Shown one piece after another: positions 3,141 through 38,774 of a stretch of DNA of 64,000 nt. Below the pieces are notes generated by a model. The model ran no database searches. It saw only the letters and a program-made list of their open reading frames with translations, and was not told the DNA's origin. How positions within the stretch are numbered: the first letter of the stretch is position 1; each line of letters starts with the position of its first letter. Position numbers and translations under genes: made by a program. Source of the DNA: Bacteroidales bacterium. GTDB lineage: Bacteria; Bacteroidota; Bacteroidia; Bacteroidales; Paludibacteraceae. The stretch is from NCBI GenBank assembly GCA_015061165.1, contig SUXC01000001.1, forward strand, positions 124,001 through 188,000. The letters run 5' to 3'.

Positions 3141-3164
3141 CTTAGTATTTGGGTTTGAACGATG

Positions 3165-3774: not shown

Positions 3775-3838
3775 CGGTACACAATGAAACTAAAGTTAGA
3801 AATGAAAGACAACAAGCACGGTAGTAAGCCACCGCAGG

Positions 3839-4132
3839 CTATGAGTGAGGCTCAGGCGGAGTGTCATTCTCTGTCTCGACAGTGAATTTGCCAATGCTGG
3901 TCTTCATGTGTTGGAGATTGCGGGCTTCTCTGAGGGTAGGAGGGATTTGTGACAATACCAAAGGGCAGCATAGTAGGCAGCCATATTGGAATACCGACTG
4001 ATGGATCTCTCCTACAGGAGGAACACAGAATCCAGCCACACCTAAGCCAATCATGGCCAGCGTGCTGATGACGAAGACAAGCAGGTGAACAGGGAAGTTC
4101 TTCCAGCTGATATGTTTGAGGCGTTGTAACAT
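3839..4132 (-). CDS. Small two-segment membrane protein, possible holin
   Basis: Residues about 15-35 and 45-65 are hydrophobic, with prolines and cysteines (GCLLCCPLVL), and the tail is charged and soluble (TENDTPPEPHS). At 97 residues with two membrane segments it has holin-like topology. It is the last gene of the morphogenesis operon, one base after 4134-4595, and just before the terminator. However, the endolysin lies 7 kb away in another unit, so a holin role is not certain and a structural membrane protein is possible. Confidence 0.5.
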   Translation of the reverse strand: MLQRLKHISWKNFPVHLLVFVISTLAMIGLGVAGFCVPPVGEIHQSVFQYGCLLCCPLVLSQIPPTLREARNLQHMKTSIGKFTVETENDTPPEPHS

Positions 4133-4133
4133 A

Positions 4134-15507: not shown

Positions 15508-15519
15508 TTTAGTAAAAAA

Positions 15520-15551
15520 TTTGGTAATTTCAAAAAAAAGCAGTACCTTTG
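15520..15551 (+). promoter_or_regulatory. Plus-strand promoter in the tail-fibre region
   Basis: TTTG (15520), exactly 20 bases, TACCTTTG (15544-15551) is a full consensus match pointing against the surrounding leftward genes. Confidence 0.8.
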
Positions 15552-15555
15552 CACC

Positions 15556-15637
15556 GTTTCCTGATGCTATCGGAAGTATCCAATTCGATGCTATCGGAAT
15601 TGCGCCATTACGATGCTATCGTAGTGGCATTTTTTTA
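15556..15637 (+). ncRNA. Candidate three-hairpin small RNA
   Basis: About 80 bases between a consensus promoter and a terminator, in the gap between two minus-strand genes. Three successive hairpins share the sequence GATGCTATCG with a GCT loop: 15558-15575, 15582-15601 and 15605-15627. Stem arms outside the shared core differ but still pair. The third is followed by seven Ts and acts as terminator. No start codon in a useful frame is seen. Target and role are unknown. Confidence 0.6.
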
Positions 15638-16258
15638 TTTACCCATATTCCAAACATCATTTGTATCGTCATACTGAGCTCGGAACATGGCGAAGTTGGA
15701 TATCTGCTTACCGTCTTTGATAAGACAGACACCACCATTTTTTCGTAGAATAGCGGAGATAGGAACAGGTGAACCTTCTTGATCACAATAACCAGTACCG
15801 AAAGAATCGTCTGTTACGAAGTCAATAAATTGTTCGTAGCCATCTACGGTGATTTCATAGTACGCATTTCCGCCTAAAATAAAATCAGGAGTTGTAGACT
15901 TCAATATAGGGCGGATAAGAGGTTCGCGATTGCTGATTGGCAAACGCAACACTTCATGCCAACCAGTGGTATGTGCTCGATGATTCTCATCGTTATCATA
16001 GTATGGACTATTATTGTTTCTGCGTACTTTTACGCGCTTTTTGCGTTGATATTGTAAGGATACATTAGACAAATCAAAATCCTTGTCAATAACTAGATAA
16101 ACATGAGAAATATCGTCATTGGTAGTTACATTCTTGGAAATGTAGCTATCAATGAAAACTAAATTGCTGTTTCCACCTGCAGCTTCTTGTGCAAGACGCT
16201 CACCAAGCTCTTTAGCAAATTTATTCAGATTGTCGGGGGTTGCTACTGTTTCTGCCAT
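15635..16258 (-). CDS. Hypothetical phage protein (207 aa), fibre-associated
   Basis: After a helical start (NLNKFAKELGERLAQEAAGG) the protein is beta-rich with a basic strand (RKKRVKVRRNNN). Its stop overlaps the T-tract of the candidate small RNA on the other strand. It lies 19 bases after the repeat-containing fibre gene 16278-17675. No known domain. It may be a fibre chaperone, a fibre tip or a neck protein. Confidence 0.5.
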   Translation of the reverse strand: MAETVATPDNLNKFAKELGERLAQEAAGGNSNLVFIDSYISKNVTTNDDISHVYLVIDKDFDLSNVSLQYQRKKRVKVRRNNNSPYYDNDENHRAHTTGWHEVLRLPISNREPLIRPILKSTTPDFILGGNAYYEITVDGYEQFIDFVTDDSFGTGYCDQEGSPVPISAILRKNGGVCLIKDGKQISNFAMFRAQYDDTNDVWNMGK

Positions 16259-16277
16259 AAGGTTAATATTTTTTTGG

Positions 16278-17675
16278 TTAGTTATTCAAATTGATTGCTT
16301 GTCGATATGTTTCTATCGTTAGATCTACGAGACGAGTAACCTCCTGATCAGAAAGAGGAGGGTACTCAGAGTGCCCAGAGAACATAGCTGTGTCTTCAGG
16401 AGAGTATGTTTGATTAACAATGCTCGTAAGGATATCATCATCAATAGGTATGATAATCTGAGCATCGTTATCAGGGAGAATACTCACATCTGTAATATCA
16501 GCAAAGACATGGGTATGTTGTGCCTGGGCATAGTCGCCAAGAGGCTGCTTGGAGTTAACAGCCGATTGCAATTCTTTAATATCTCCGATTGCATGCTCAA
16601 TATCTTGACTTGCATTACCTTTCCAATAATTAATTTCAGCAATCGCACCTTTAATAGATTGAGCGTGTTCTGCTGACATGTCCTCATTACCTATGGTTTG
16701 CTCAATATTATTGGCTTTGGTATTGACTTCATTAATAGCTTCAACCACAGCTTTTGCTGTAGTCTGTAGCGAAGCATCTGATTTGTCCTGCTTGGAGTTA
16801 ACAGCCGATTGCAATTCTTTAATATCTCCGATTGCATGCTCAATATCTTGACTTGCATTACCTTTCCAATAATTAATTTCAGCAATCGCACCTTTAATAG
16901 ATTGAGCGTGTTCTGCTGACATGTCCTCATTACCTATGGTTTGCTCAATATTATTGGCTTTGGTATTGACTTCATTGATAGCACTAACCACAGTTTTTGC
17001 TGTAGTCTGTAGTGAAGAATCTGACTTATCTTGCTTAGAGGTGAGATTTTCTGGATATACATAGCAATGTTCCTCCCACTCACTCCAACTACCATCTCCT
17101 ACCTTTGTACGTCGTTTCCAACCATCGTTATTGATAAGCGTTTGAATATATGTGTTTGTGGATGGTCTTCCTAGCATATGACGACCACGATTGAAAGATA
17201 CAGTAAAGGTATACCACTCAGTATTTCTTAATGGAATACTTAAACATACACTATACATTCCTTTATCTGTATAACTCTCGAGGTCGGTAGTGGTATTAGT
17301 AATATAGAGGGTATTATCTACAGGCTGTCCAGTAACATCTTCCCATAATGGAGCATTATATATGTATATGCGGGATTTGTCTGGACTATTAACAATATAG
17401 ATGATACCTTTTTCAGGAGTAACTTCATCAAACACTCCATTTTGATAGAGGAACAGGAAACCATCTACTCCATCTGATGAAGTTGGTTCTATCATATAAA
17501 GTGCTCCCTCTTGTGGTGCTTCTACATCGTCAATAGAAGCGATAGAGATAGCATTAACTATTTCTTTTTCGCTTGGATGCACAATCTCTTGAACGCCTAA
17601 AATAGCATCTTTGACATTCTTCCACAGCTGCTGTAGAGCTCTATCGAGGCGTCGCATTGTAACAATAACTAACAT
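16278..17675 (-). CDS. Tail-fibre protein with duplicated coiled-coil segment
   Basis: Residues 1-25 form a helix, residues about 40-200 a beta-rich region ending with the GDGSWSEWEE motif common in fibre and pyocin knob-type domains, then two nearly identical 81-residue helical units (from SKQDKSDSSLQTTAK on), and a C-terminal region with QHTHVFADITD, a HxH motif that can hold iron in phage needle tips. This is the layout of a long side-tail fibre. It starts 3 bases after the 17679-18182 stop. Confidence 0.7.
   Translation of the reverse strand: MLVIVTMRRLDRALQQLWKNVKDAILGVQEIVHPSEKEIVNAISIASIDDVEAPQEGALYMIEPTSSDGVDGFLFLYQNGVFDEVTPEKGIIYIVNSPDKSRIYIYNAPLWEDVTGQPVDNTLYITNTTTDLESYTDKGMYSVCLSIPLRNTEWYTFTVSFNRGRHMLGRPSTNTYIQTLINNDGWKRRTKVGDGSWSEWEEHCYVYPENLTSKQDKSDSSLQTTAKTVVSAINEVNTKANNIEQTIGNEDMSAEHAQSIKGAIAEINYWKGNASQDIEHAIGDIKELQSAVNSKQDKSDASLQTTAKAVVEAINEVNTKANNIEQTIGNEDMSAEHAQSIKGAIAEINYWKGNASQDIEHAIGDIKELQSAVNSKQPLGDYAQAQHTHVFADITDVSILPDNDAQIIIPIDDDILTSIVNQTYSPEDTAMFSGHSEYPPLSDQEVTRLVDLTIETYRQAINLNN
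16545..17030. repeat. 243-bp tandem duplication in the fibre gene
   Basis: CTGCTTGGAGTTAACAGCC begins at 16545 and again at 16788, and the following 243 bases are nearly identical. The unit encodes 81 residues, so length change by recombination would stay in frame. Confidence 0.9.
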
Positions 17676-17678
17676 AAA

Positions 17679-18182
17679 CTAAGACGGTAAATTGTTAATG
17701 ATATCATCTATTTCCTCTTCGGTGATTTCACGGAAGACATCCCAACCTACAGGTGGGTATTCTTCTCCTAATGCTATTACTCCAGAAACTTCAATCCAAG
17801 CCATAGGAGAAGATAACTCAACAGTTACTTCTACATGGTTGGTAGTAGATGGCCCTGCAGTAATGTCTTTAGTCGAAATAGCAGGAACATTGTCGGCAGA
17901 GCCAATCAAATATATAGCACCAGATGATGCCGTAACTATAAATGCGCACTTGCGCTCCCGAAATGAAAACGGAACAATAAAGGATAGCAATACTTTACGG
18001 TTGCTTCCGTTGTTTTCATTGCTATCGCTTATCTCCAGCTTTGGATCACCGACAAATGAAAATGGGGTGAACTGCAGATGAGTAATGTCCGGTGATATAC
18101 CAGACATCGCCTGTAGTTCAATACTTGAGTCGATATCCAAAGCAGATATAAATGCTATCGATTTTATTCCAGGTACTCTCAT
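17679..18182 (-). CDS. Hypothetical phage structural protein (167 aa)
   Basis: Beta-rich, with the stretch HVEVTVELSSPMAWIEVSG and an acidic helical C-terminus (REITEEEIDDIINNLPS). Starts inside the stop of 18179-18751 (four-base overlap). No signal peptide. It lies between a conserved phage gene and the fibre, so a tail or baseplate role is likely; I do not recognise the family. Confidence 0.5.
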   Translation of the reverse strand: MRVPGIKSIAFISALDIDSSIELQAMSGISPDITHLQFTPFSFVGDPKLEISDSNENNGSNRKVLLSFIVPFSFRERKCAFIVTASSGAIYLIGSADNVPAISTKDITAGPSTTNHVEVTVELSSPMAWIEVSGVIALGEEYPPVGWDVFREITEEEIDDIINNLPS

Positions 18183-25827: not shown

Positions 25828-26148
25828 ATGATTGACTTACAAGCAAATCTTAAGGCAATCCTCAAAGAAAGAGGGATTTTGCAGAAAAATGTCGCACTGG
25901 CGATGGGAGTTACTGACTCGGCAGTCAGCAATTGGTTCAAGCGTAATGACGAAATGAAGTTTAGTACAATTACACAGATTTGTGAAAAACTAAACATTTC
26001 TATCGTGGATGTAGTAACTTACCCGAAAAAGTACATTCCTGAAGAAGAAATCAACCCTACTTGTGAAGAGTGTAAACACAAGGATGAGATGATAGAGAAT
26101 CTCTCGGAACTTCTTCGTATCTACAAGAAAGAATCAAAGAAAAAGTAG
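25828..26148 (+). CDS. XRE-family phage repressor
   Basis: Residues 1-65 are a helix-turn-helix of the Cro/CI type (LKERGILQKNVALAMGVTDS then AVSNWFKRND). Residues about 75-106 include CEECKHKDEMIENLSELLRI, a CxxC followed by a coiled coil, suitable for dimerisation. There is no LexA-like peptidase domain, so induction cannot be through RecA self-cleavage. It is divergent from the early operon, with palindromic operators between. The start is leaderless. It should maintain lysogeny. Confidence 0.8.
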   Translation: MIDLQANLKAILKERGILQKNVALAMGVTDSAVSNWFKRNDEMKFSTITQICEKLNISIVDVVTYPKKYIPEEEINPTCEECKHKDEMIENLSELLRIYKKESKKK

Positions 26149-26149
26149 T

Positions 26150-26374
26150 ATGGAACAATTTGAATTACTAAAAATTTTGCAAATCTCTACTTTGGCGAGA
26201 TTAGCAGCGAAAGGTGATGTAGAAAAAGAGAAAGTTATAATTTTCGAAATTACCGAATGTGTTCTCAATAAAATTGCACTTAAAAGTGAAATAGCAATTG
26301 GTATATACCACTCAATTGAATGTAAATGCAGTGAGGATGTTGCTAATGAATTAATTAATATGTACGGATTATAA
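26150..26374 (+). CDS. Hypothetical protein co-transcribed with the repressor (74 aa)
   Basis: It starts 1 base after the repressor stop, so it is translated from the same message. It is helical and Ile/Leu-rich (FELLKILQISTLARLAAKGD) with a short Cys pair (SIECKC). No membrane segment, no known domain. Genes in this place often modulate the repressor or exclude other phages. That is an inference from position. Confidence 0.55.
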   Translation: MEQFELLKILQISTLARLAAKGDVEKEKVIIFEITECVLNKIALKSEIAIGIYHSIECKCSEDVANELINMYGL

Positions 26375-26476
26375 AAAAGCAACCAAGAATATCCTACAGT
26401 ATTTCCCTTAATATACGCGCATTAGTCCCCTGCGCATTATGCGCGCGGGACGGTGCGAGTACAATATATAATATAA

Positions 26477-26520
26477 GACATATTTGGGACATATTTGGGA
26501 CATATTTGGGACATATCTGC
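26477..26520. repeat. Four 11-bp repeats (GACATATTTGG)
   Basis: Copies start at 26477, 26488, 26499 and 26510, the last one altered. The 11-bp spacing keeps them nearly in helical phase. Confidence 0.9.
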
Positions 26521-26813
26521 CCTTTTATAAGACATAACTTTATTTTTTTTGAGTGGTCGAAAAAAGAAAGGATTTATTTTGCAAAAGAAAAAGAATGTTG
26601 TAATCAGCAGAAAATCAACAGTTTTTATTTTGCAATAAATAAACAAAGCACAAAGAAATAAAATAAAAAAAAACAGTAAATGCGCCTAATAAAAGTACTT
26701 TATAAGCCCTTTTATTCGCCCTTTAGACAGATGTATCAATTAAAAATGTGAGCGCAGCACTCACCGCTCACATACTCACAGGATACAGAGAAATAACTTG
26801 CTGGTAACTTGCC

Positions 26814-26838
26814 GAGTAGTCTTTCCACCAAGACTCTC
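26814..26838 (+). other. Hairpin upstream of the junction terminator
   Basis: GAG-t-AGTCTT / AAGACT-CTC with a TCCACC loop. Its AGTCTT arm could instead pair with AAGACT-type sequence in the next hairpin. Confidence 0.5.
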
Positions 26839-26854
26839 GCCATCCCGACTAACC

Positions 26855-26891
26855 AAAGAAAGACTTACGGATTCGTAAGTCTTTCTTTTTT
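26855..26891 (+). terminator. Strong 15-bp stem terminator
   Basis: AAAGAAAGACTTACG and CGTAAGTCTTTCTTT pair perfectly around GATT and run into more Ts. It isolates the prophage side from the lipoprotein gene. Confidence 0.8.
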
Positions 26892-27031
26892 GTGTCGATT
26901 ACGGGGAGGAAACCTTGATAGTCCTATTGGTAATCGAGTGGTATGCGAAGATCTGGCTGGGGAAAATGGTGCGTTTTGTAAAATACTATTTAGCAAAATA
27001 CAATTTTTTTCTAAAAAAATACACCTGACTT

Positions 27032-27062
27032 TTTGGTAATTCAAAAAAATATACTATCTTTG
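27032..27062 (+). promoter_or_regulatory. Promoter of the surface lipoprotein gene
   Basis: TTTG (27032), 19 bases, TATCTTTG (27055-27062). The leader before the ATG is about 110 bases. Confidence 0.75.
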
Positions 27063-27176
27063 CAGCGTAATTTGCGGGAAAGTTTCCAATATGCAACTTT
27101 TGGACGCAAGCAAATTAGTTATAACTAACTAAAAACTAATACATTAAATTAAAAAACAATCTAATAAAAACAAACG

Positions 27177-29552
27177 ATGAAAAAGAGTTTCTCTATTATC
27201 TGTACATTGACAATTTTGTTATTTGCCAGTGCATCATGCGACAACGGTAAAAACCCTGCTGTATCGACCACTGAAAATGTAACGATTATCGATGATCCCT
27301 CACAATTATCATCGCGATTAGTTTTTGGCAGCAGTCACAAACTACTACCAGCACGCAAACGCGTGGCAACTACACCCGCACCCGCTATTCCTGCGGATGC
27401 ACTCCCACTCAAAGATGCACCTACCAACTGGAACAATGGTGTGACCCTTACTAAAGGTAAGGCCTACTACATTACCGAGCCATGGACTGGTACCGTCAGC
27501 CAAGATTGGTCAGGCGAAGGCAGCATTGACATTTACATCGCAGCTAACGCTACTTTCTCTGGCGCATGGTGGAACGACGACACTCCTGTAAACATCTACA
27601 TCCTTGAGGGTGCAGTACTCACCTACTGCGAAGCAGGTTGGGATGACAAAGTGAAAATCAAAAAAGCTACCAAAGTATATTGCTGGGGTAACATCACCAC
27701 ACCAGACAATATGGGATTGCGCTTGTACGAAGCTGGTTTGCTGCATATCTACGACACTGAAGGCGAGCCATTCTATGTGAAAGCCAACAACAATACCGTT
27801 AATAACAACAATGCCTACTCTTCCTTCCAAGTAGATCCTGCCTCAGACTTCTATTGCGAGCGCGAGATGTATGTGGAAGGTACAGCTTTGCTCAATGGCG
27901 GTAAGACACATACCACTAACAAGGTGACCATCGGCAAGGATCTATATGTAGAGGGCGCGGCAGATGTGACCTTTGACGATTGCGTATATGTACTACGCGA
28001 GTTGGACTTCAAGTCCAGTCGTTCGGCTGTGGTGAACGTGAACAAATACCTGCAAACCAACACCCTGCTCACCAACCAAGGCGTAGGTACGATGAACCTC
28101 AAGGATGCGTTGTTTGAAATCATGAGCGACGGTATGTTCGTGGACAAAGGCAGCCAACGCATTGTGGTGAATGGCGTAGAAGCTACCTACAAATCCGTAG
28201 TAAAGGTAGGCGGTAAACTCTATTTCGATCACGGTAACGAATACACCAATGTACCTGGCGATGTAGCAGCGGCTGCGTTCCCATGTGGCAACTTGACGGG
28301 CAACTTGGACGTGCAAGGTGACCTGCGCATCAAGTTCTACTACGATGTGGCAGACGAGAAAGCAGTGCTCAACGAAGAGAATATGGTCGTTCCTTCGACC
28401 GTCACTATCGGCACCAACTCATGGCTTCCTGCTTCGGAAGACGGTTGCCGTCCAGAGGTGGGTAATGTGCCTGTCATTGAGGTGTTGCCTCCAGAGAGCA
28501 GTTCTCCTACACACAAGTACTCTGCTACCAGCATTGCTTTCAACGGTGATGTGGTATATTTGAGTTGGCATGCTAATCCAGAGACTAACCTCAAATACGG
28601 AGAGCACAACTACAGCCCATCTGTGGACAGTGCAGACGATTTTGGTGGTATTATTGATGTAATTCATATTGATAGTTATGACATTACCAGTAGCCTCTTT
28701 GAGCAGTCAATGGAGAACAGTGAGTTCAAATACAACCATATCTTCTTCTCCGACAATGTGGTTTACACTGCTGCTACAAGCAGCAAAGTGGGTGCAGCAA
28801 TGACGAAAGTAGCACTCAATAGCAATGGTCGCTTCCCAGCCGTTGAAGAATACAAAGAAGAGCGCGTAAACTTAACGGGTTACTCGGCTAACTGCGTGGA
28901 TCGTATCGGCGATGAATTGGTGACCATCTCTGGCTACTCCAATGGTGGTATCAATAAGTTTGGCTTGAACGACAATACCAACCAAGAGAAGAAGAGTCTC
29001 AACGAGTACACCGAGAACTTCCAAGGTAAATACATCTATTATAATAGGGAGAATGGCAAGGTTGTTACACTCAATAATACCGATCGTGGTATCGTGACTA
29101 TCTACAACACTCAAATGGTGGAAGAAGCATCCTTTGAGGTAGGCTCTATTTATCCTGTTGACGGTAAGAATGTATGTATCTGCGACAACGAGCATATCTA
29201 TGTCTGCAAGGGCCAAAACGGCTTTGGCGTTTACGATTACGCTGGCAATCGTGTAGGTGGTAGCAATCGCAGTGCCAATGGCGTAGATGTGGATGAGCAT
29301 CATATCTACCTCGCTGCAGGCGATGGATTGGTCATATTGGATAAGAATAGCACATACACCGACATAAATGGCAATATCTGCAACCGCTTGATTAAGCGCC
29401 TCTGCTACACTGGTTGTGCCGCTACCAAGGTGAACAACAATACCGATGTAAAACAATCGGCTAACTTCGTGAAGAAAGGTCCTGATGGTCGTATCTATGT
29501 GGCATACGGCATGTACGGCCTCCAAATTTACGAATTGGGCATGACCGAATAA
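27177..29552 (+). CDS. Large surface lipoprotein (beta-helix plus propeller-like)
   Basis: The N-terminus MKKSFSIICTLTILLFASASC has a lipobox with Cys at about residue 21; the mature end DNGKN is acidic, as in surface-exposed Bacteroidetes lipoproteins. Residues about 90-430 are a run of short strands with Asn/Gly turns suggesting a beta-helix. The last 300 residues contain blade-like repeats (VCICDNEHIYVCKGQNGFGV, then HIYLAAGDGLVIL and RIYVAYGMYGLQIYELG), similar to LVIVD-type propellers. No catalytic site is seen. It precedes the exopolysaccharide operon with its own promoter and terminator, so an association such as polymer or cell-surface binding is possible but unproven. Confidence 0.7.
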   Translation: MKKSFSIICTLTILLFASASCDNGKNPAVSTTENVTIIDDPSQLSSRLVFGSSHKLLPARKRVATTPAPAIPADALPLKDAPTNWNNGVTLTKGKAYYITEPWTGTVSQDWSGEGSIDIYIAANATFSGAWWNDDTPVNIYILEGAVLTYCEAGWDDKVKIKKATKVYCWGNITTPDNMGLRLYEAGLLHIYDTEGEPFYVKANNNTVNNNNAYSSFQVDPASDFYCEREMYVEGTALLNGGKTHTTNKVTIGKDLYVEGAADVTFDDCVYVLRELDFKSSRSAVVNVNKYLQTNTLLTNQGVGTMNLKDALFEIMSDGMFVDKGSQRIVVNGVEATYKSVVKVGGKLYFDHGNEYTNVPGDVAAAAFPCGNLTGNLDVQGDLRIKFYYDVADEKAVLNEENMVVPSTVTIGTNSWLPASEDGCRPEVGNVPVIEVLPPESSSPTHKYSATSIAFNGDVVYLSWHANPETNLKYGEHNYSPSVDSADDFGGIIDVIHIDSYDITSSLFEQSMENSEFKYNHIFFSDNVVYTAATSSKVGAAMTKVALNSNGRFPAVEEYKEERVNLTGYSANCVDRIGDELVTISGYSNGGINKFGLNDNTNQEKKSLNEYTENFQGKYIYYNRENGKVVTLNNTDRGIVTIYNTQMVEEASFEVGSIYPVDGKNVCICDNEHIYVCKGQNGFGVYDYAGNRVGGSNRSANGVDVDEHHIYLAAGDGLVILDKNSTYTDINGNICNRLIKRLCYTGCAATKVNNNTDVKQSANFVKKGPDGRIYVAYGMYGLQIYELGMTE

Positions 29553-29576
29553 TATCTCCAACATATTTCACTCCAA

Positions 29577-29610
29577 GGAAAAAGCGGAAACTCTCCGCTT
29601 TTTCCGTTTT
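29577..29610 (+). terminator. Terminator after the lipoprotein gene
   Basis: GGAAAAAGCGGA / TCCGCTTTTTCC around a 5-base loop, followed by GTTTT. Confidence 0.85.
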
Positions 29611-29664
29611 ATATTGCTTAAATACGCATGTTTTGTCCTATTTTTTGAGAATTACTGCGTAATA

Positions 29665-29696
29665 TTTGGAAAATTCAAAAATAAAGTGTAACTTTG
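29665..29696 (+). promoter_or_regulatory. Promoter of the exopolysaccharide operon
   Basis: TTTG (29665), exactly 20 bases, TAACTTTG (29689-29696), with the first ATG 26 bases downstream. Confidence 0.85.
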
Positions 29697-29722
29697 CAGG
29701 TTGAATTGCTTTATGTAAACAG

Positions 29723-31066
29723 ATGAAGAAGTTATTGGTTATATTTTTTGTATTCTGTGCCACTACCTTGACTTACGCCCAGCAAGACGGGAGCCTGAGG
29801 CTGTTTGACACCTTTGAGCAACGGTTTGTAGCATTGGATTCACTGATTTTTGCGCCTACAGAAGTAGATAGTGCAGTGGTGGATAGTCCAGCCGTTTATT
29901 TTCAACACTATTGGATAGCGCAAGATACTACCAGCAAAGCAGACTCCTTGATTACAGATCATGTAAAAGCCGAAGTGCGTGCCATGAAGCACGAGACAGG
30001 ACTGGCTCTGACAGGACAGACCTACTATCGTCTGGACGAAGGATTGGCGCTCGACGAAGACGATGCTGTATCGCGCTACAAAGCCAAAGTGCAAGTGGAA
30101 CTGCGTTGGAACTTCCTTAACTCCTCTCTCATTCATCGTCAAGGTCGCAAGCAAGCTATTGAGTTGCAAGGCGACATGGAGCGCATAGAGATGGACAAAG
30201 CCAACCTTGCGCGCCTATTGGCTGAGAATCAAGAGTTTTACCAGCAGAAATACGATAGCCTCTTGTCGGGCATTCTGCAACATCGCTTGGTAAACCTCAC
30301 ACTTATGAATGATGCGCAAATGTACTTGTTGGAGCATGGTAATATATCCAGCGATGAGATGTTGGATATCATCAACGACAAAGCTGAAGCCGAGCGAGCC
30401 CTGATGGCAATGTCTAAAACTTATCCGTTAGCAGAGAATTTGTCTCACCCTTCGGGATTGGTGGTAGAGATAGATTCCGCAGGACTGATGGATTATATTC
30501 GCGAACACCATGCGGACCTACATCTGCTGCAATTACAATCCGACCTATTGAAACAACAAATGGAAAATCATTCCTACTGGACCAAACTAAATATCTCACC
30601 ATTTATCCGTTATTCCTATTATTTCCGTACCGAGTTGGCCAACTCTACCAACGTGGACTTTGGTGTAAATTTCAATATTCCACTCACAGGCGAAGCCAGT
30701 AAAAAACGCGCGGCGATGGATGCAAAGCGGATGATTATTGATAAGGAGAAAGAACACACAACTCAAAAAATAATAGAGAATATTGGAGCCATCTTGCTGG
30801 ATATAGAACGACTGAACCGCATCTCTGCTGCCGAATTGAATCGTATGCAGGATTTGAAACACTATTTGCAGGTGCGCAGCAATGCTTACAACAATCGCAA
30901 AGGTGGGTACAATATCATCTTGCGTACAAAAGAATACAATACCTATTTGATATGTTGGGAGAAATTCCTATCGTATCAATATCAACGCGATTGTTTGCTC
31001 ATGACATTGCAGACATATTTGTCGGATATTTCTATATTTGAATTTTGTGTAGGCACAGTTATATAA
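29723..31066 (+). CDS. TolC-like outer membrane protein
   Basis: A signal peptide (MKKLLVIFFVFCATTLTYAQ) is followed by long helical stretches separated by short strands. An example is LARLLAENQEFYQQKYDSLL, and a second helical half comes later in the protein. The strand block SPFIRYSYYFRTELAN then NVDFGVNFNIPLTGEAS matches the beta-barrel signature of outer membrane efflux proteins. At 447 residues it is of normal TolC size. It would form the exit channel for the product of this operon, working with the adaptor encoded 23 bases downstream. Confidence 0.75.
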   Translation: MKKLLVIFFVFCATTLTYAQQDGSLRLFDTFEQRFVALDSLIFAPTEVDSAVVDSPAVYFQHYWIAQDTTSKADSLITDHVKAEVRAMKHETGLALTGQTYYRLDEGLALDEDDAVSRYKAKVQVELRWNFLNSSLIHRQGRKQAIELQGDMERIEMDKANLARLLAENQEFYQQKYDSLLSGILQHRLVNLTLMNDAQMYLLEHGNISSDEMLDIINDKAEAERALMAMSKTYPLAENLSHPSGLVVEIDSAGLMDYIREHHADLHLLQLQSDLLKQQMENHSYWTKLNISPFIRYSYYFRTELANSTNVDFGVNFNIPLTGEASKKRAAMDAKRMIIDKEKEHTTQKIIENIGAILLDIERLNRISAAELNRMQDLKHYLQVRSNAYNNRKGGYNIILRTKEYNTYLICWEKFLSYQYQRDCLLMTLQTYLSDISIFEFCVGTVI

Positions 31067-31089
31067 CATATTAAAATAGCAATTGAGAT

Positions 31090-32316
31090 ATGAGAGACTT
31101 TTCATTTTCTACAGAAGATAGGCAAAACGACATTGAGAACATCCTCAAAGAACGAAAAAAGAAAATAGCGACACAGCAGATTGTGTTCACAATCCTTCTA
31201 TTGTTTATCCTTATTATTATAGGACTGTGGATAGGTAAAAATATCCTATACACAGAGTTTGATGGGTATATTAATTCGGATTTGAATACGCTGCGCCATG
31301 CGGATGATATATATGTTTTGGAAGTAAATAAGAAGGTCGGTGATTTCGTGGTTCCTGGTGATACACTATTTTCGTATGTATATAGCCATATCTTCTATAG
31401 TCATGAGTCCACGGATAGCGAACCTACTGTAGTCGTACAAAACCGAAATATGCGCGTGGATTATGGTCTGGCTCGACAAGATTTGGAAGTTCTGAAAGTG
31501 CGCGTGAAGGAGCTGAAAAAACAATTGGAAACGGAAGATCACAATATCCGCTTTGGTTTGAGCGATAACCTCAAAAAGATGAAGTTGGAGCAGGAACTGG
31601 CTGAAGCCGAAGAACAATATAACGCGCAACGTCGCAAATTGGGTGTCCTATGGAATGCACTCAGTCAAACCAAACAAGCGGTGAAGAAAGCGTATAATCA
31701 CGAATCTGGATTTTTGCAGGTACAAGATATGCGTAATGTGGAAATGATGAAAGAGTTGAACTTGGTGCGCTATTCTATCGCTGTGGATTCTGGTATTGTT
31801 ACTAAAATTTATGTTCCAGAGTTAATCCTTGTACTACGGGGCGAACCTATTATCTCTATGCAGAGTTTTGATTTACATAGGAATAACCTATCTGTGGTTA
31901 CATACGTTATGCCTCGCGAAATGAAACATATCAATCGTAACACGCAAGCAGAAGTGATTGTGAATGATGAAGTGTCGTTCACGGCAAGCGTATTGATGTT
32001 AGGAACCCGTACGGAGGAGATTCCTGGTGAATTGCGTAGTACGCTGTCGCGCGATCATACGGCGGTGATTGTGGTAATGGGAGTAGATACAGGGCAAGTG
32101 ATTCCATTCTGGACACTGGTGAAGAATATCCCTGTGCGCATACGAATCAACAACTTCAAATCGCAAGTGGAAAATGATGATGTGGACTATATGATGTTCC
32201 ACACAACACACGGACTTATCCGCCCACAAAAAAACAAGCAGACAATAGAGCAAGATAGCATTATAGAACCAATAGATACAGTAGTAAACGATACGCTACT
32301 GATACTGAAAGAATAA
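31090..32316 (+). CDS. HlyD/Alg44-like membrane fusion protein
   Basis: A short cytoplasmic N-terminus, one membrane segment at residues about 31-49, then a lipoyl-like strand block (VLEVNKKVGDFVVPGDTLFSY), a coiled-coil hairpin at about 125-200 and a returning lipoyl and barrel half (AVDSGIVTKIYVPELILVLRG). This is the adaptor layout that links an inner membrane machine to TolC. Alg44 of alginate synthesis has the same fold with an N-terminal c-di-GMP-binding PilZ domain; here no PilZ is present. Inner membrane, periplasmic body. Confidence 0.8.
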   Translation: MRDFSFSTEDRQNDIENILKERKKKIATQQIVFTILLLFILIIIGLWIGKNILYTEFDGYINSDLNTLRHADDIYVLEVNKKVGDFVVPGDTLFSYVYSHIFYSHESTDSEPTVVVQNRNMRVDYGLARQDLEVLKVRVKELKKQLETEDHNIRFGLSDNLKKMKLEQELAEAEEQYNAQRRKLGVLWNALSQTKQAVKKAYNHESGFLQVQDMRNVEMMKELNLVRYSIAVDSGIVTKIYVPELILVLRGEPIISMQSFDLHRNNLSVVTYVMPREMKHINRNTQAEVIVNDEVSFTASVLMLGTRTEEIPGELRSTLSRDHTAVIVVMGVDTGQVIPFWTLVKNIPVRIRINNFKSQVENDDVDYMMFHTTHGLIRPQKNKQTIEQDSIIEPIDTVVNDTLLILKE

Positions 32317-32334
32317 TCGTAATGACGGAAGAAT

Positions 32335-33744
32335 ATGGAACAATCGATTTATAAGATAGTAGCTAATTCCATGGGGCGCAATATATTGGTCATCAACCAA
32401 TATGTTGATGTAGAGAATAACCCAGAGATTCAAGAAGATATGTTTGATATTGTGTATCTCAATATCGGCAATATGTCGAATAATGAGATAGGATTGTTGT
32501 TGGAAAAGACCTCTCCAATCTTTTCCACGAAATGCTGGATGAAGCCACGATTTATTCAAGCCAATGACCTTGCCCGCATGGGTATGATGGCTGCGCTGAT
32601 AGATGGCAGAGCTAATAGTCCGTTTGATGATTTTGTGACAGAGCATTCCGAAAGCATATTTCAACAGATGGAACAGTTGAATATCAAGCATATTGCCAAT
32701 GTATCTACCTATGTGGCATTTTTTGTGCGCTTGTGCAAATATGCTATCAGCCGTGGAAAATATACTTACACCTCTACTGTTGTTCCTGGTCTATCCGAAG
32801 GACATTCTGCCCTTTTTGCCGCATTGCTATCTAATCATGAAGTGGTAACGCGCAAAGAGTTTTTGGAATTTAACCAAAAACTATTGGATATGGGATATGC
32901 AGAACCACAAGAGTTTGTGGAGCGCGTACACATATGTCCGCATTGCAAAAGTAGTCATCTCATTTACGCAGAATGTTGCCCAAAATGCAATAGCTCCAAT
33001 GTAAATGAGGAACCGATGTTGCACCACTTTAGATGTGCAAATATTTCCCCCGAGAGTACATACGTGTATGATGAAAAACTGCGCTGCCCTAAATGTCGCC
33101 AATACTTGCGCCATATCGGTGTAGATTATGACCGCCCTACGGATATTCATACTTGTGTAGAATGTGGACACACTTTCCTGCATACCAATATGAAAGTGCG
33201 TTGTGCCAACTGTGGGTCTATGCAGCGACCTGCTAACTTGCAATCAATAGATGTGGTTCGATATAAATATACACCCGAAGGCATACAGTCTATTATTAAC
33301 AACGATGCGATGATTAAGATCGGTAAAGACTTGTGGTTTGGCTATTCCAACTTTGATTCCTATCTGCAGCAGTTGCGTCTGTTCTCGCATACCAGCGCGC
33401 TCAACGAAACGCTGTACACCGTGCGACTGCACATGATTATACCTGAACATATAGGCGAGTCAGATCGAATACAACTTCTACGCCGAATGCACGAGGTGTT
33501 CTATAATTATAATTTCTCGTTCAAAGGTAATTATTATTTCCTCTCTTCTAAAAATACAACGGAAGAATCCAAAGAAACTCAACAAGCCATAGAATGGAGT
33601 TTGGAAAATAAATTGGCGAACGTAAAATCAGAATGTCCATTTATACAAGTGAATGAACAGGCTATTTTGGTAAGAGAGTCATCCGAAAATATCGAAAAAT
33701 ATATCCACCGTCTATGTGAACCGATATTTCTAAATAATGAATGA
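32335..33744 (+). CDS. Cytoplasmic zinc-ribbon protein, TackOD1-like
   Basis: The 469-residue protein has no signal peptide or membrane segment. Its middle (about residues 200-310) is packed with CxxC knuckles: CPHCKSS, CCPKCNSS, RCPKC, CVECGH and CANCGS. Between them, MLHHFRCANI and CRQYLRHIGVDYDR match the pattern I recall for the Thaumarchaeal output domain TackOD1. The N-terminal 190 residues look like an alpha/beta sensor or degenerate receiver domain. The C-terminal 150 residues (HMIIPEHIGESDRIQLLRRM) resemble a signalling domain, perhaps GGDEF-like. I infer a regulator of the glycosyltransferase encoded 12 bases downstream. Confidence 0.65.
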   Translation: MEQSIYKIVANSMGRNILVINQYVDVENNPEIQEDMFDIVYLNIGNMSNNEIGLLLEKTSPIFSTKCWMKPRFIQANDLARMGMMAALIDGRANSPFDDFVTEHSESIFQQMEQLNIKHIANVSTYVAFFVRLCKYAISRGKYTYTSTVVPGLSEGHSALFAALLSNHEVVTRKEFLEFNQKLLDMGYAEPQEFVERVHICPHCKSSHLIYAECCPKCNSSNVNEEPMLHHFRCANISPESTYVYDEKLRCPKCRQYLRHIGVDYDRPTDIHTCVECGHTFLHTNMKVRCANCGSMQRPANLQSIDVVRYKYTPEGIQSIINNDAMIKIGKDLWFGYSNFDSYLQQLRLFSHTSALNETLYTVRLHMIIPEHIGESDRIQLLRRMHEVFYNYNFSFKGNYYFLSSKNTTEESKETQQAIEWSLENKLANVKSECPFIQVNEQAILVRESSENIEKYIHRLCEPIFLNNE

Positions 33745-33756
33745 TAGACAGTAGCC

Positions 33757-35079
33757 ATGTTGGACTTTTTCTTCCACATAATAGATGAAATTATAGGCGG
33801 TTTTACACGTAATGTTTCATGGCATGTATTGCTGAATACCTATTGGTTTCTGTTTTTTGTGGAATTTCCGCGTTACTATCTATTGGAGATACTTGTTACC
33901 TGTTGGCATAAACTACACTATCGTGAGCGCAAAGAAGAGAAAACTATTGCACGCATGAAATTGTACATTGAGAACCCATTAGTTACAATTTTGGCACCAG
34001 GTAAAAATGAAGGAAAAAATATCTACAAGTTGGTACAATCCCTTCGTGAGCAAACCTATAAGAATTACGAGATTATTATCGTGGATGATGGTTCGGATGA
34101 TGCAACACCATTGATTTGCAAAGATTTGGAAAAAGCAGGATATATAGACCTATTTATTCGCGCTAATTCCAGAGGCGGTAAAGCGAGTGCTGCTAATTTA
34201 GGAACTTTCTATGCCAAAGGTAAATATGTTGTCCACCTGGATGCAGACTCATCGTTGGATAGAGATGCGTTGGAAAATATCCTAATCCCCTTTTATATGG
34301 ATAGCCAAATCAAAGCTGTAGGTGGGGTAGTCAAAGTGAGAAATGCACACGATTCTATTTGCACTGCTATGCAGGCGTTGGAATACCTCAAAACGATACA
34401 AGTTGGTCGTATGGTAACCAGTGAGTTAGGAATTTATCATATCATTTCAGGTGCTTTTGGTGCTTTTGATGCCAAAGTGCTCAAGCAGGTTGGATATTGG
34501 GATATTGGTCCAGGATTGGATGGCGATATTACACAAAAAATCCGCAAGGCGGGCTACAAAGTATATTTTGCAGAAGAGGCTATTTGCATGACTAATGTAC
34601 CTGTGAAATGGAGTGTGTTATTCAAACAACGCAGAAGATGGAGCAAGTCGTTGGTGCGATTCCGATTGCGTAAACACAAGGATATTTTTATGCCCAACAA
34701 GAATTTCTCTTTCTCGAATATGTTGTCTAACTTAGAGAATATTGTCTATGATTTTGGATTCAACTATGTATGGTTCGCTTATGTTCTCTCGCTCATTTTT
34801 ATGCACCCCGACCGATTGGTAGAGATATTTGCTGTGGGATATATTATTCGTATGATTTTTGGTTATATAGGATTCTTGATTATCCAATGGGTCAGCGAAC
34901 GTCCAAGAGAAGAACGCTGGTTGGCAGGATACGTACCGCTATCGACTTTCTATACGGGCTATTTCCTGCGCTTTGCGCGATTGGTGGCACACACGCAAGA
35001 GTTGTTTAATTTCTCTTCCTACAAAGACCCATGGAACCCACGTAAAACATCCGAGGTCGCACAATCGGAGGGAATATAA
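33757..35079 (+). CDS. Processive family 2 glycosyltransferase
   Basis: A membrane segment near residues 22-48 leads into a GT2 domain with all landmarks: DDG at 110-112, DAD at 162-164, GLDGD at about 253-257 (acceptor base) and QRRRW at 291-295, the signature of processive synthases such as BcsA, Alg8 and PgaC. Two or three membrane segments follow at about 325-420. It should polymerise a nucleotide sugar and push the chain across the inner membrane. No PilZ domain is attached. The sugar cannot be read from the sequence; the deacetylase suggests an acetylated or N-acetylated polymer. Confidence 0.9.
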   Translation: MLDFFFHIIDEIIGGFTRNVSWHVLLNTYWFLFFVEFPRYYLLEILVTCWHKLHYRERKEEKTIARMKLYIENPLVTILAPGKNEGKNIYKLVQSLREQTYKNYEIIIVDDGSDDATPLICKDLEKAGYIDLFIRANSRGGKASAANLGTFYAKGKYVVHLDADSSLDRDALENILIPFYMDSQIKAVGGVVKVRNAHDSICTAMQALEYLKTIQVGRMVTSELGIYHIISGAFGAFDAKVLKQVGYWDIGPGLDGDITQKIRKAGYKVYFAEEAICMTNVPVKWSVLFKQRRRWSKSLVRFRLRKHKDIFMPNKNFSFSNMLSNLENIVYDFGFNYVWFAYVLSLIFMHPDRLVEIFAVGYIIRMIFGYIGFLIIQWVSERPREERWLAGYVPLSTFYTGYFLRFARLVAHTQELFNFSSYKDPWNPRKTSEVAQSEGI

Positions 35080-35082
35080 GGT

Positions 35083-35610
35083 ATGCAGAATATGAAACAG
35101 TGGATACTAACATATATGTGCCTAATAATGGCTGTGCTGTGTGCAAAGGCAGAGCCTATGCCACATAACTTGGTGGTGCAATTCTGTGATGCAGAAACAC
35201 TGGTGTTTGCACTGACAGAAAAACCTATTGCCACCCTGCGGGCGGATAGTCTGCTGATAGCAACTGGTAAATTTCAGGCTACATACTTGCGAGATGAGAT
35301 ATGTGATTTCTATTTTCTACAGGCACCGAGGGATACTTCTAACCTCTCCAATCAAACCATTTATATTTCCTATATGAATGACCATATCATTCGGATTCAT
35401 GGCGTGCAGAAAGGTGATCAGATAGTGATGTATAGCGTGGGGGGCAATTTACTACGTACGCATGCTATGAAAAACGATAATGCGTATGTGTTGCATTTGA
35501 GTTCGTATCCCAGGGGGATGTATCTGATTCAAGTGCAGTATTATGCGACCGATAAAAAACATAAAGATTATAAAAGACAACATACTATATCTTTCAAGAT
35601 TATTCGATGA
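35083..35610 (+). CDS. Small secreted protein with type IX-like C-terminal domain
   Basis: The signal peptide is MKQWILTYMCLIMAVLCAKA (second Met, residue 4). Residues about 95-175 resemble the type A sorting domain of type IX secretion: a strand ending IRIHGVQKGDQIVMYSVGG, NLLRTHAM, then LSSYPRGMYLIQV and a basic end (ISFKIIR). The part between is only about 70 residues, so the protein may be a small surface-anchored accessory. It starts 3 bases after the glycosyltransferase and overlaps the deacetylase gene by four bases. Confidence 0.6.
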   Translation: MQNMKQWILTYMCLIMAVLCAKAEPMPHNLVVQFCDAETLVFALTEKPIATLRADSLLIATGKFQATYLRDEICDFYFLQAPRDTSNLSNQTIYISYMNDHIIRIHGVQKGDQIVMYSVGGNLLRTHAMKNDNAYVLHLSSYPRGMYLIQVQYYATDKKHKDYKRQHTISFKIIR

Positions 35611-37589
35611 TGCGAAAAATAAGTGTTATATTGTGCTTTTTGATAGTTTGTGTTTATTGGCTTTCTGCTCAGCAATGGACCGAGATTATGCGCATTGAAA
35701 TGGTGGATTCTACTATCATTCTGCCTGTGGCAAATATTCAGCGTTTTGCATTTGACTATGTGAATGAGGATGAAAGGGATATGACTGAATATATTTCCAT
35801 GGATGATGTAGTAGCGCAAAAAAGGTGTGTGTTATTAGACTTAACGCAGCAAAATGCGCATAATGAGGAATCGGGTGAGCATAGTCGCAATGTATATTCT
35901 GCCCAATACTTACTCAATTTGGCGGGCATACCTTATACGATTGCCACCAATGTGCAGGATGCTATTGCTCAGGCGGATATGATTGTTTGTGCTTCGCCAT
36001 TCAAACAGAGTACACTGACACCCTCCGAGATACTGCTTCTCCAACAATGGATTGAGTCTGGCGGAGTATTCGTGGCTCCTGCTATAACGAATACCAACCA
36101 TCATTTGTGTTCGCTCTTTGGTGTAGAGTCTGTGGTGTATTCTAAGGATAGAAGAACCTTCACATGGCGCGATGAATATTTGGCAGAGAAGGAGTTGGAG
36201 TATTTTAATGAAGTGGAAGAGCGTACTGTGTCGTTGGGCAAAGCACGCAATATAACTGCTGAATCCATCAAAACCTATGGTTATCAGCCCACTACTGCTG
36301 AAGCGATGGCGTATTTTGATGATACAAATATGGCTGCAGTGCTGCGGAATCGTATAGGAAAAGGTATGATATACACCTTTGGTATTTTATGGCGCGATGT
36401 GGTGCAACGTTCGCAGTTAGGAAAAAATACGGCTGCTGCTCGTATTACCAGCAATGGTTTTGAACCTTCAGCGGATGTCTATGCCTTCTTTTTTAGGTCG
36501 TTATATGCCAAGATTAATCCTGTGTCTGTGTGGAAATATACCATTCCTCAGGGCTATGAGTCTGTATTGATTCCTACACACGATTGTGATTCGCGAACGG
36601 CATACGATGAAATGTATTGGGTGTCTGAATATGAAAAAAGTTTGGGACTAAGTGCACACTATTTTCTAACGGTTCATTATTTCCGCGATGCTGGCTATTT
36701 ATCGGATTTCTACAACGCAGAAACTAAGCCCAAAGCGCAGCGTTTGCTCGTGGATGGACATACTGTGGGCAGCCACTCCATTTGCCATTTCCCCGATTTC
36801 AGCAAGACCGAATTGTTTCCCGCTACAGTAGTGACCAAAGAGGCATACGCAGCCTCTGCTCATCACGATAAATCTACGGGTGTGACACAAGGAGGCTCTA
36901 CATGGGCAGAAGTTGGGTTGTCAAAACTAATTATTGAGGAGGATTTAGGTAATCGTGTTCGATCATTCCGCAGTGGACATTTATGTATGAACAAGAATAT
37001 ACCACTCGTGCAACAAGCGGTGGGATATAACTTTTCTTCCTGCTATGCTTCGTGCAATGTGTTGAGCCAATTCCCCTTCCACGAACGAATGGAGAATGAT
37101 TGGGCGGGTGCGCAAGGTGTATTGCAGATTCCACTGCATATATCCGATGTGATTAATGCTAATCCTATGACAGATTCTGCGTGGAATCATGCGCCTGATA
37201 TATGGTTGAAGGTGTTGGAAAAATTGCAGCGTAACTATGCTCCAACCGTATTGCTGATTCACCCAAACCGTGATTGGAAAATGTTTGCCTTGCAACAATT
37301 GGTGGAAGCTATGGATAGAGAAAAGGTTGGGCTATACAATTTTGAAGCATACGGTGATTTCTGGTTGGCGCGCGAAAAGATGGTCTTTGACTATACCTAT
37401 CTTCCCGATAGTAAGTCCATTGTTGTATGGGTGAATGAGCAGATAGAGGAAGAAACCGCGTGTGTATTTGCTGTGGATGTGCAGTCGGGCGTGGTGGTAG
37501 AAAATGCTGTTTTCGTTGATGAAAAGGGGCTGCAATCGAAGTTGCAAATCAAGAAAATGCAAGAGGGAAGGTATTTGCTATCTAAATAA
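35607..37589 (+). CDS. Secreted polysaccharide deacetylase with GATase-like domain
   Basis: A signal peptide (residues 1-21) is followed at about 70-270 by a Rossmann-like domain similar to glutamine amidotransferase-type ThuA/DUF4350 folds (ADMIVCASPF, WIESGGVFVAPA). From about 315 a NodB-type deacetylase domain starts: HDCDS at 325-329 (metal Asp and base) and GHTVGSHSICH at 384-394 (both metal His). Later RSGHLC and LLIHPN complete the site. The last 80 residues are a beta domain. It probably removes acetyl groups from the exported polymer in the periplasm or outside. Last gene of the operon. Confidence 0.75.
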   Translation: MMRKISVILCFLIVCVYWLSAQQWTEIMRIEMVDSTIILPVANIQRFAFDYVNEDERDMTEYISMDDVVAQKRCVLLDLTQQNAHNEESGEHSRNVYSAQYLLNLAGIPYTIATNVQDAIAQADMIVCASPFKQSTLTPSEILLLQQWIESGGVFVAPAITNTNHHLCSLFGVESVVYSKDRRTFTWRDEYLAEKELEYFNEVEERTVSLGKARNITAESIKTYGYQPTTAEAMAYFDDTNMAAVLRNRIGKGMIYTFGILWRDVVQRSQLGKNTAAARITSNGFEPSADVYAFFFRSLYAKINPVSVWKYTIPQGYESVLIPTHDCDSRTAYDEMYWVSEYEKSLGLSAHYFLTVHYFRDAGYLSDFYNAETKPKAQRLLVDGHTVGSHSICHFPDFSKTELFPATVVTKEAYAASAHHDKSTGVTQGGSTWAEVGLSKLIIEEDLGNRVRSFRSGHLCMNKNIPLVQQAVGYNFSSCYASCNVLSQFPFHERMENDWAGAQGVLQIPLHISDVINANPMTDSAWNHAPDIWLKVLEKLQRNYAPTVLLIHPNRDWKMFALQQLVEAMDREKVGLYNFEAYGDFWLAREKMVFDYTYLPDSKSIVVWVNEQIEEETACVFAVDVQSGVVVENAVFVDEKGLQSKLQIKKMQEGRYLLSK

Positions 37590-37615
37590 AAAAAACGGGG
37601 TTACCCGTTTTTTTT
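37588..37615. terminator. Bidirectional terminator
   Basis: AAAAAACGGG / CCCGTTTTTT around GTTA sits between the convergent deacetylase and mnmA genes, with T-tracts in both directions. Confidence 0.85.
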
Positions 37616-38774
37616 ATTGTATAATACCGCCACCTACTACGAGGTTGTCTTTGTACATCACCAATGACTGACCCGGCGTTACGCCCCAGACGGGGGAAAC
37701 AAAGTGGACAGAAGCCCCCTCTGGGAGAGTAGGGGTGTTGGCTATTGGCAATTGGCGATTGGCTATTGGTAATAGGCGGGCAGGAACGGCGGGGGATTTG
37801 TAGCGGATACGGGCTTGCACTTGGGGCGACTCCTTGAGCCAATCCCAATCACGGATACGCACATCGGCAATAGTGGCTTGGGTAGTAAGCAAGTCCTCGC
37901 GGTCGCCCAAGGTCACACGGTTATGCGCTGCATCAATCTTCGTGACGAACTTAGGTGCTCCTAAAGCAATACCCAACCCCTTGCGCTGACCAATCGTATA
38001 ATGGCAATAACCTTGGTGCATGCCCAAAATCTTGCCTTGTGCATCTACGTACTCGCCCTGCGGAACGGATACACCATGCTGCGCGAGGAACGAACGATAG
38101 TCATTGTTGGGGATAAAACAAATATCTTGGCTCTCTGCTTTCTTGCTCAATGCCTCAAAACCGTGGTTAAGAGCAATCTGCCTAACCTCCGTCTTGGTCA
38201 GTCCTCCCAACGGAAATATCGTGTGGCGGAGGTTCTCCTCGGTGAGCATCCAGAGGAAATAGGTTTGGTCCTTATGGGTATCTACTGCGTTCTTGAGATA
38301 CATGTGTCCGCGGTGTTCGGCAATCTGCGCATAGTGCCCGGTGGCAATATAATCGCAGCCATACTGCTCGGCAGCCTGCATGAGTTTGCCCCACTTGATA
38401 TGCGAATTGCATAATACACAAGGATTAGGCGTGCGCCCGCGTGCGTACTCGCTCACGAAATTACCAATCACATGCTCGCGGAAGGTATCACGGAAATCCA
38501 ATATATGCTGCTCGAAGCCCAACGTAGCAGCCATGCGCTGCGCATCCATGATACTTTGCTCGGAAGCGCAGTGGGGGGAGGGAAGCCTACCCCCAGCCCC
38601 TCCCTCGAGGGAGGGGTGGGTATTGGATATGGGCGATTGGGTATTGGCAATTGGGGTAGGGTCGAAGGTGCGGAAAGTAGCACCGACCAACTCATAGCCC
38701 TGCTCCAACAGCAGAATGGCCGCTACGGTGGAGTCTATTCCACCTGACATACCTATGAGAACACGTTTGGACAT
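37614..38774 (-). CDS. mnmA: tRNA-specific 2-thiouridylase MnmA with two insertions
   Basis: The PP-loop GMSGGIDSTVAA, the catalytic pair in PNPCVLCNSHIK and SQDICFIP, and the C-terminal barrel are all present. MnmA adds sulfur to U34 of Lys, Glu and Gln tRNAs. At 386 residues it is longer than usual because of two low-complexity insertions: IANTQSPISNTHPSLEGGAG near residue 43 and LPIANRQLPIANTPTL near residue 345. Both come from dispersed repeats and lie outside the catalytic motifs. The reading frame is intact. Confidence 0.93.
   Translation of the reverse strand: MSKRVLIGMSGGIDSTVAAILLLEQGYELVGATFRTFDPTPIANTQSPISNTHPSLEGGAGGRLPSPHCASEQSIMDAQRMAATLGFEQHILDFRDTFREHVIGNFVSEYARGRTPNPCVLCNSHIKWGKLMQAAEQYGCDYIATGHYAQIAEHRGHMYLKNAVDTHKDQTYFLWMLTEENLRHTIFPLGGLTKTEVRQIALNHGFEALSKKAESQDICFIPNNDYRSFLAQHGVSVPQGEYVDAQGKILGMHQGYCHYTIGQRKGLGIALGAPKFVTKIDAAHNRVTLGDREDLLTTQATIADVRIRDWDWLKESPQVQARIRYKSPAVPARLLPIANRQLPIANTPTLPEGASVHFVSPVWGVTPGQSLVMYKDNLVVGGGIIQ
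37735..37790. repeat. Dispersed repeat inside mnmA (copy near C-terminus)
   Basis: A run of GGCTATTGGCAATTGGCGAT-type phrases encoding IAN and similar tripeptides in frame. Confidence 0.8.
38575..38660. repeat. Dispersed palindromic repeat inside mnmA (N-terminal copy)
   Basis: The perfect palindrome CCCCTCCCTCGAGGGAGGGG is followed by GTATTGG/GCGATTGG phrases. It adds about 28 residues in frame. Confidence 0.85.

Follow-up and report, generated by a model that had tools for sequence, protein, structure and literature searches.

How are polysaccharide synthases switched in bacteria without the usual second messenger? The question is raised by a gene cassette of gut Bacteroidales, found in Paraprevotella clara, Segatella copri, Barnesiella and Muribaculaceae, whose genomes have no GGDEF enzyme scoring over the cut-off where this was tested. 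The cassette analyzed here lies in the window, by which we mean the whole stretch of 64,000 nucleotides from a Bacteroidales bacterium of the family Paludibacteraceae. One of its genes encodes a protein with the domain TackOD1, which has been named, without a function, as the output domain of archaeal receiver (REC) proteins (PMC5847659); in the literature that we searched, TackOD1 is mentioned in that paper only. The features on which the argument draws are as follows.

29723..31066, + strand: TolC-like outer-membrane protein, 447 aa (Pfam OEP, E 8.9e-5, 22.8 bits, cut-off 22)
31090..32316, + strand: HlyD-like periplasmic adaptor, 408 aa (weak NCBIfam HlyD match, E 0.0015)
32335-33744, + strand: TackOD1 regulator gene, 469 aa (N-terminal domain, TackOD1, degenerate GGDEF)
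32335..32688, + strand: N-terminal domain, residues about 1-118; a stand-alone gene of about 110 aa in REC-bearing relatives
32845..33267, + strand: TackOD1 zinc-ribbon core, residues 171-311 (PF18551, E 1.5e-44)
33340..33741, + strand: predicted GGDEF-fold domain without GGDEF or RxxD motif, residues 336-468 (VIA-align)
33757..35079, + strand: processive family-2 glycosyltransferase (GT2), 440 aa (Pfam Glycos_transf_2, 2e-25)
35083..35610, + strand: small secreted protein (Por_Secre_tail 0.00098, a weak T9SS sorting-tail match under the cut-off)
35607..37589, + strand: secreted polysaccharide-deacetylase-like protein, 660 aa (Polysacc_deac_1 0.0021, under the cut-off)

The genes for the TolC-like protein, the HlyD-like adaptor, the TackOD1 protein, the GT2, the small secreted protein and the deacetylase-like protein form a tight run on one strand, with successive gaps of 23, 18, 12 and 3 bp and then a 4-bp overlap. 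The initial annotation had placed the TackOD1 gene between an adaptor and a glycosyltransferase, which is where it lies (HlyD-like gene at 31090-32316, GT2 at 33757-35079). The adaptor has a single N-terminal transmembrane (TM) helix at 31-49, and its homologues give Pfam HlyD matches. The GT2 carries the catalytic motifs DDGS110, DAD162, GLDGD253 and QRRRW291, the last of which agrees with the Q(Q/R)xRW signature of processive polymerases. The deacetylase-like protein combines the motif DGHTVGSHSICH with an N-terminal hydrophobic stretch, and its relatives occur near the cassette in 5 of 92 loci. A gene of the UDP-glucose/GDP-mannose (UDP-sugar) dehydrogenase family is found in 49/92 cassettes, where it precedes TackOD1 or follows the GT2; these include L024-L026 and many Bacteroidales loci. 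In the window cassette the deacetylase-like gene stands in place of the dehydrogenase, and the dehydrogenases are sited elsewhere in the genome. The polymer probably differs between lineages.

Upstream, at 27177-29552, the window encodes a secreted protein of 791 aa that has a lipoprotein-like signal and matches nothing in Pfam. Its relatives adjoin 39/92 cassettes, on either side, and it likely belongs to the system. A strong terminator-like hairpin at 29577-29605, between the gene for this protein and that for the outer-membrane protein (OMP), parts the run from what lies upstream; the frequency of terminator-like sites in the region is not above that in shuffles, and Rfam gave no match in 26000-38500. 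In another cassette, an outer-membrane-protein-like gene (L027:12039-14165) shows a mid-protein, sub-threshold match to glycoside hydrolase family 30 (E 5.4e-5).

The identity of the cysteine-rich region was settled by profile search. Pfam TackOD1 (PF18551) matches residues 171-311 of the window protein with an E-value of 1.5e-44 and 152.3 bits, where the curated cut-off is 32, so the region is not a chance cluster of cysteines. The match spans profile positions 47-187 of 188, the first 46 being unaligned in the window protein. Five CxxC motifs stand at residues 201, 215, 251, 274 and 290, together with GVDYDR and with HHFRC, whose HxxC occupies 231-234; the protein thus has the 11 conserved Cys, arranged as five CxxC and one HxxC, that are described for the domain (PMC5847659). 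Over 84 relatives the invariant columns are C201, C204, C215, C218, HHF(230-232), C234 and CPKC(251-254), and further L258, G262, DYD(264-266), P268, C274 and C277. The initial annotation had assigned TackOD1 from the letters alone, and the profile score upholds it, down to the reading-frame coordinates, the CxxC, HHFRC and GVDYDR motifs and the Pfam number it gave. The alternative that it named, an ordinary ribbon of the rubredoxin or rubrerythrin kind, failed: against the TackOD1 value of 1.5e-44, the best generic family (NF033497) reaches E 0.049 and the Pfam ribbons E 0.06 or above. Its term "archaeal-type" is apt insofar as TackOD1 was first named in archaea (PMC5847659), but the domain is widespread in bacteria with this GT2; no archaeal origin of the window's TackOD1 is shown, and the term says only where the domain was first named.

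A ribbon so rich in cysteines could act as a metal or redox sensor that answers zinc or thiol stress and so gates the synthase. The 11 conserved Cys and the His, which for the most part do not vary among 84 proteins, would suit this role, but structural zinc ribbons are commonly conserved to this degree, and no genes of metal homeostasis were conspicuous in the cassette, where a minority of neighbours was annotated individually. We consider a sensor of this kind very unlikely.

TackOD1 is very strongly linked to the glycosyltransferase. Among 92 Bacteroidota loci, which include two fetched twice (L099=L026 and L104=L024), 87 have the GT2, three are ended by contig edges and so are untestable, and two (L086 and L093) lack it, so that 87/89 testable loci have the GT2 immediately downstream and in the same orientation. 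Relatives of HlyD are present in 88/92 loci and those of the TolC-like OMP in 80/92. When 395 Bacteroidota genomes were searched, the 12 with TackOD1 over the cut-off were the same 12 that hold the GT2 subfamily, each with one cassette except G203 with two. GT2 profile A2, which was built from the same loci it was tested on, scores more than 680 bits in those 12 genomes and 212 bits in the next best genome. It is important to note that nine of the 12 belong to one family, so that independent pairing events are fewer than 12. A separate replicate in Pseudomonadota is provided by a collection of 72,556 plasmids, in which 15 records, from alpha- and gammaproteobacteria, hold the GT2 at E<=1e-30; every one of them also holds TackOD1. 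In eight bacterial plasmid neighbourhoods TackOD1 is followed by the GT2 and then by an annotated HlyD (five) or an unnamed protein in that place (three). The loci, the genomes and the plasmids agree, and the consistent link to GT2 genes on which the initial annotation had staked its reading is thereby borne out. In one of the eight plasmid neighbourhoods (L119), the TackOD1 gene is annotated in two pieces, or else a small gene comes after it.

The two loci without a GT2 nearby, L086 (9983-15684) and L093 (9983-11933), have TackOD1 beside a single-domain receiver protein, which means that TackOD1 is not linked to the GT2 in every case. In L086 a TPR histidine kinase also adjoins TackOD1 and the receiver, a signalling setting for the TackOD1 family. 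No GT2 was present in the one archaeal TackOD1 neighbourhood that was read. The genome of locus L023 has two oppositely oriented cassettes that are separated by about 11 kb (1660-4339 and 15141-17915), one of the REC type and one of the N-terminal-domain type.

TackOD1 itself is sparsely distributed. Besides the 12/395 Bacteroidota genomes, it is over the cut-off in 1/101 genomes of the window's own family and absent from four other genomes of its genus, a patchiness that would fit either horizontal transfer or repeated loss. Scanning genome contigs gave 460 relatives, and the best 80 of the 460 bear Bacteroidota names with two exceptions, labelled Lachnospiraceae and Ruminococcus, which are probably misbinned or mislabelled.

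What flanks the ribbon bears on how it might be used. An AlphaFold model of the window protein built from 84 relatives reaches a pLDDT of 89, superseding a poor earlier model from 13 sequences (pLDDT 58), and its N-terminal domain is mostly at 84-98. No Response_reg (REC) match was found in the window protein with Pfam. In six relatives, the TackOD1 protein instead starts with a true REC, and a separate gene of about 110 aa lies just upstream; a REC is also fused in two alphaproteobacterial relatives. The stand-alone proteins of about 110 aa and the N-terminal domains align profile to profile with an hhalign E-value of 8.2e-21. One branch thus has the domain fused and the other has it as a separate gene, a pattern that argues for its working together with TackOD1. 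A first alignment had been read as making the N-terminal domain a degenerate REC; we dropped this reading, for which there is no profile match and which sits ill with the domain's occurrence as a separate gene beside REC-bearing proteins. A PDB profile search with the domain returned only designed helical-repeat proteins and noise.

At the other end, nine Bacteroides/Segatella-type homologues (L083, L084, L085, L088, L091 and L094-L097) have a C-terminal TM helix, which would place them at the inner membrane. In L083-L085 and L088 a periplasmic tail of about 140-150 aa without Pfam match follows; a SPOR domain suspected by eye in the tail of L083-L088 was set aside, as Pfam did not support it.

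These arrangements also bear on whether the protein might regulate its operon at the level of transcription or RNA, with the zinc ribbon binding nucleic acid like the output domain of a response regulator. Gene pairing alone would also fit a transcriptional or a precursor-supply role. In favour stand the naming of TackOD1 as an output domain of REC proteins in archaea (PMC5847659), the REC found in several relatives, and weak zinc-ribbon matches of the window protein to TFIIB-type domains. We nevertheless hold such a regulator to be improbable, for TackOD1 is paired almost obligately, and across phyla, with a membrane synthase, the nine homologues above are anchored by a C-terminal TM helix, no HTH is among the families listed in the scans, and 3/84 members without the C-terminal domain retain the GT2 pairing.

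The C-terminal domain bears on the question of c-di-GMP. Pfam finds no GGDEF match in the window protein, and Foldseek by itself gave only weak matches to the model, none under E 0.001. VIA-align of residues 336-468, in turn, returned many GGDEF domains at Z 11.2 to 9.8, the best match covering 126 residues (Z 11.2, rmsd 2.9) and ranks 1-34 all being GGDEF-domain proteins; BcsE (Z 8.8) and PelD (Z 8.3) were also recovered. Foldseek being weak, the assignment rests on VIA-align, on the sequences of relatives and on two gammaproteobacterial members. Profile A5 of the relatives reaches GGDEF structures in the PDB at 1.5e-7, weak GGDEF matches occur in 10/84 members, and GGDEF passes the Pfam cut-off in the proteins of Plesiomonas and Aeromonas. 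The C-terminal profile of the window's branch gave no significant alignment with that of the relatives, and the predicted fold is what joins the window domain to GGDEF, by structure only.

The GG(D/E)EF catalytic motif is missing from the window protein, where the aligned stretch reads EVFYNYNFSFKGNYYFLS, and from every family member looked at. At the position of RxxD, the I-site of c-di-GMP receptors of the BcsE/PelD type, the window protein reads NYNF. RxxD is kept in 10/84 Bacteroidota members by alignment column, and, on inspection by eye, in those of Plesiomonas and Aeromonas. Flavobacterial-type members with RxxD are L098, L100, L103, L105, L106, L109, L111 and L113, whose genomes yielded no GGDEF enzyme. 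The whole C-terminal domain is missing in 3/84 members.

The host itself appears to lack the signalling system. In its genome, which is 98% complete, no GGDEF, EAL or PilZ was detected, while control genomes were positive as expected, and none of 34 cassette-bearing genomes (0/34) has a GGDEF over the cut-off. Two weak GGDEF matches in these 34 genomes have coordinates that place them in the C-terminal ends of TackOD1 proteins: G203:C116:68508-68912 comes after the second TackOD1 match of G203, and G502:C201:4593-4892 would coincide with L098, provided that C201 is the contig on which L098 lies. The suggestion of the initial annotation that the protein replaces c-di-GMP-PilZ control fits the genome without GGDEF, EAL and PilZ, but proves too simple, as the C-terminal domain is GGDEF-derived and gammaproteobacterial relatives keep RxxD. 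For the same reason, with the RxxD of the gammaproteobacterial relatives in view, the regulator looks like one of c-di-GMP-receptor type whose c-di-GMP site is missing here, not like an archaeal module swapped in. That it should still be a c-di-GMP receptor, meeting imported or undetected c-di-GMP at a non-canonical site, seems highly improbable: flavobacterial relatives do retain RxxD in genomes where no GGDEF enzyme is seen, but RxxD is missing in the window protein, and its genome has no detectable GGDEF, EAL or PilZ.

Taken together, we propose, with a probability of about 0.72, that the TackOD1 protein is a cytosolic regulatory or scaffold subunit of a synthase-dependent GT2-HlyD-TolC polysaccharide machine with lineage-dependent inputs. 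The pairing recurs almost without exception in other bacteria, which makes the protein probably the machine's internal control subunit. The machine would comprise the GT2 polymerase in the inner membrane, the HlyD-like adaptor and the TolC-like outer-membrane channel. The TackOD1 zinc ribbon would dock where the GT2 faces the cytosol, at the base of the adaptor, or at both, and the N-terminal and GGDEF-derived C-terminal domains would take in the signal and switch or assemble the synthase. Elsewhere the signal would probably be a phosphorylated receiver, as a fused REC or CheY-like in trans, together with c-di-GMP at RxxD. As neither a receiver nor a c-di-GMP input is visible in the window organism, the signal here may be another ligand or a protein partner, or the protein may serve mainly for assembly; its polymer machine is apparently independent of c-di-GMP. 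We infer the contact with GT2 or HlyD, the direction of control, the nature of the signal and the polymer.

A narrower form of this proposal is that the protein is an assembly factor only, which recruits or stabilizes GT2-HlyD and senses nothing, the loss of motifs reflecting a structural role. The window's branch has neither catalytic motif nor RxxD, its genome has no GGDEF or EAL, no GGDEF is over the cut-off in the 34 cassette-bearing genomes, and BcsE offers a precedent, acting so for BcsRQ (PMC7439463). However, the N-terminal part varies, with REC in some members and the usual domain as a separate gene, and this variation suggests changing inputs. We regard assembly alone as a real possibility, at odds of roughly one in three.

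Returning to a regulatory or scaffold subunit with changing inputs, a more specific history can be offered tentatively, at somewhat less than even odds: a regulator descended from a c-di-GMP receptor lost the c-di-GMP site along with the whole signalling system, and the synthase came under a different ligand or partner through the TackOD1 ribbon, within an Mxd-like machine of a Bacteroidota lineage. If true, this would be the first defined role of TackOD1 and a replacement of the second messenger in a polysaccharide synthase. New in any case are the GGDEF-fold C-terminal domain without catalytic motif or RxxD, the N-terminal domain as a separate gene in REC-bearing relatives and a host without detectable GGDEF, EAL or PilZ. 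The near-obligate pairing with one GT2 subfamily in two bacterial phyla gives TackOD1 a concrete, testable role.

Several known systems share parts of this design. PelD is a membrane protein with a GAF domain. It controls a synthase and has a degenerate GGDEF domain, to which the window domain compares at Z 8.3; unlike the window protein, PelD binds c-di-GMP by RxxD (PMC7439463) and has no TackOD1. BcsE of the E. coli Bcs cellulose system is a cytosolic multidomain regulator of a GT2 synthase that ends in a degenerate GGDEF (Z 8.8; PMC7439463), but it has a REC* and a further N-terminal domain, binds c-di-GMP via RxxD, lacks the zinc ribbon and has BcsQ and BcsF as partners. The archaeal REC-TackOD1 response regulators (arCOG06883) share TackOD1 with its 11 Cys and, in some members, the fused REC (PMC5847659); they differ in lying in type IV pilus loci of Thaumarchaeota, for which no GT2 link is reported and no GGDEF domain mentioned (PMC5847659). 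Among synthases, the PNAG synthase PgaC/IcaA (TIGR03937) is the nearest NCBIfam model to the window GT2, yet the 155.6 bits are far under its equivalog cut-off of 422.3. The XcsAB-TolC model of cyanobacterial cellulose also joins a GT2, a HlyD-like adaptor and a TolC-like channel (PMC12430437); XcsA can carry its own PilZ domain, whereas the window GT2 has none.

The Mxd system of Shewanella oneidensis offers a further comparison. Its mxdABCD genes encode a regulator, a membrane GT2 (MxdB) and an efflux-pump-like protein (MxdC), and aggregation is lost in mxdA and in mxdB mutants alike (PMC3691769). The description of MxdA is that of a c-di-GMP effector to which the receiver CheY3 binds (PMC7666153). 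The window protein, in contrast, has no RxxD, and no GGDEF was detected in its genome; the gene order also differs, the window having its OMP and HlyD genes upstream. Compared by parts list, from the descriptions of MxdA and MxdB, the regulator, GT2 and adaptor genes stand together in the window as well. A receiver acting on the regulator would be common to both systems, CheY3 on MxdA and, in relatives of the cassette, a REC fused in cis. The Plesiomonas cassette, in the order TackOD1/GGDEF, GT2, HlyD, has the same parts as Mxd, and membership of the cassette in the Mxd family may be taken as a lead.
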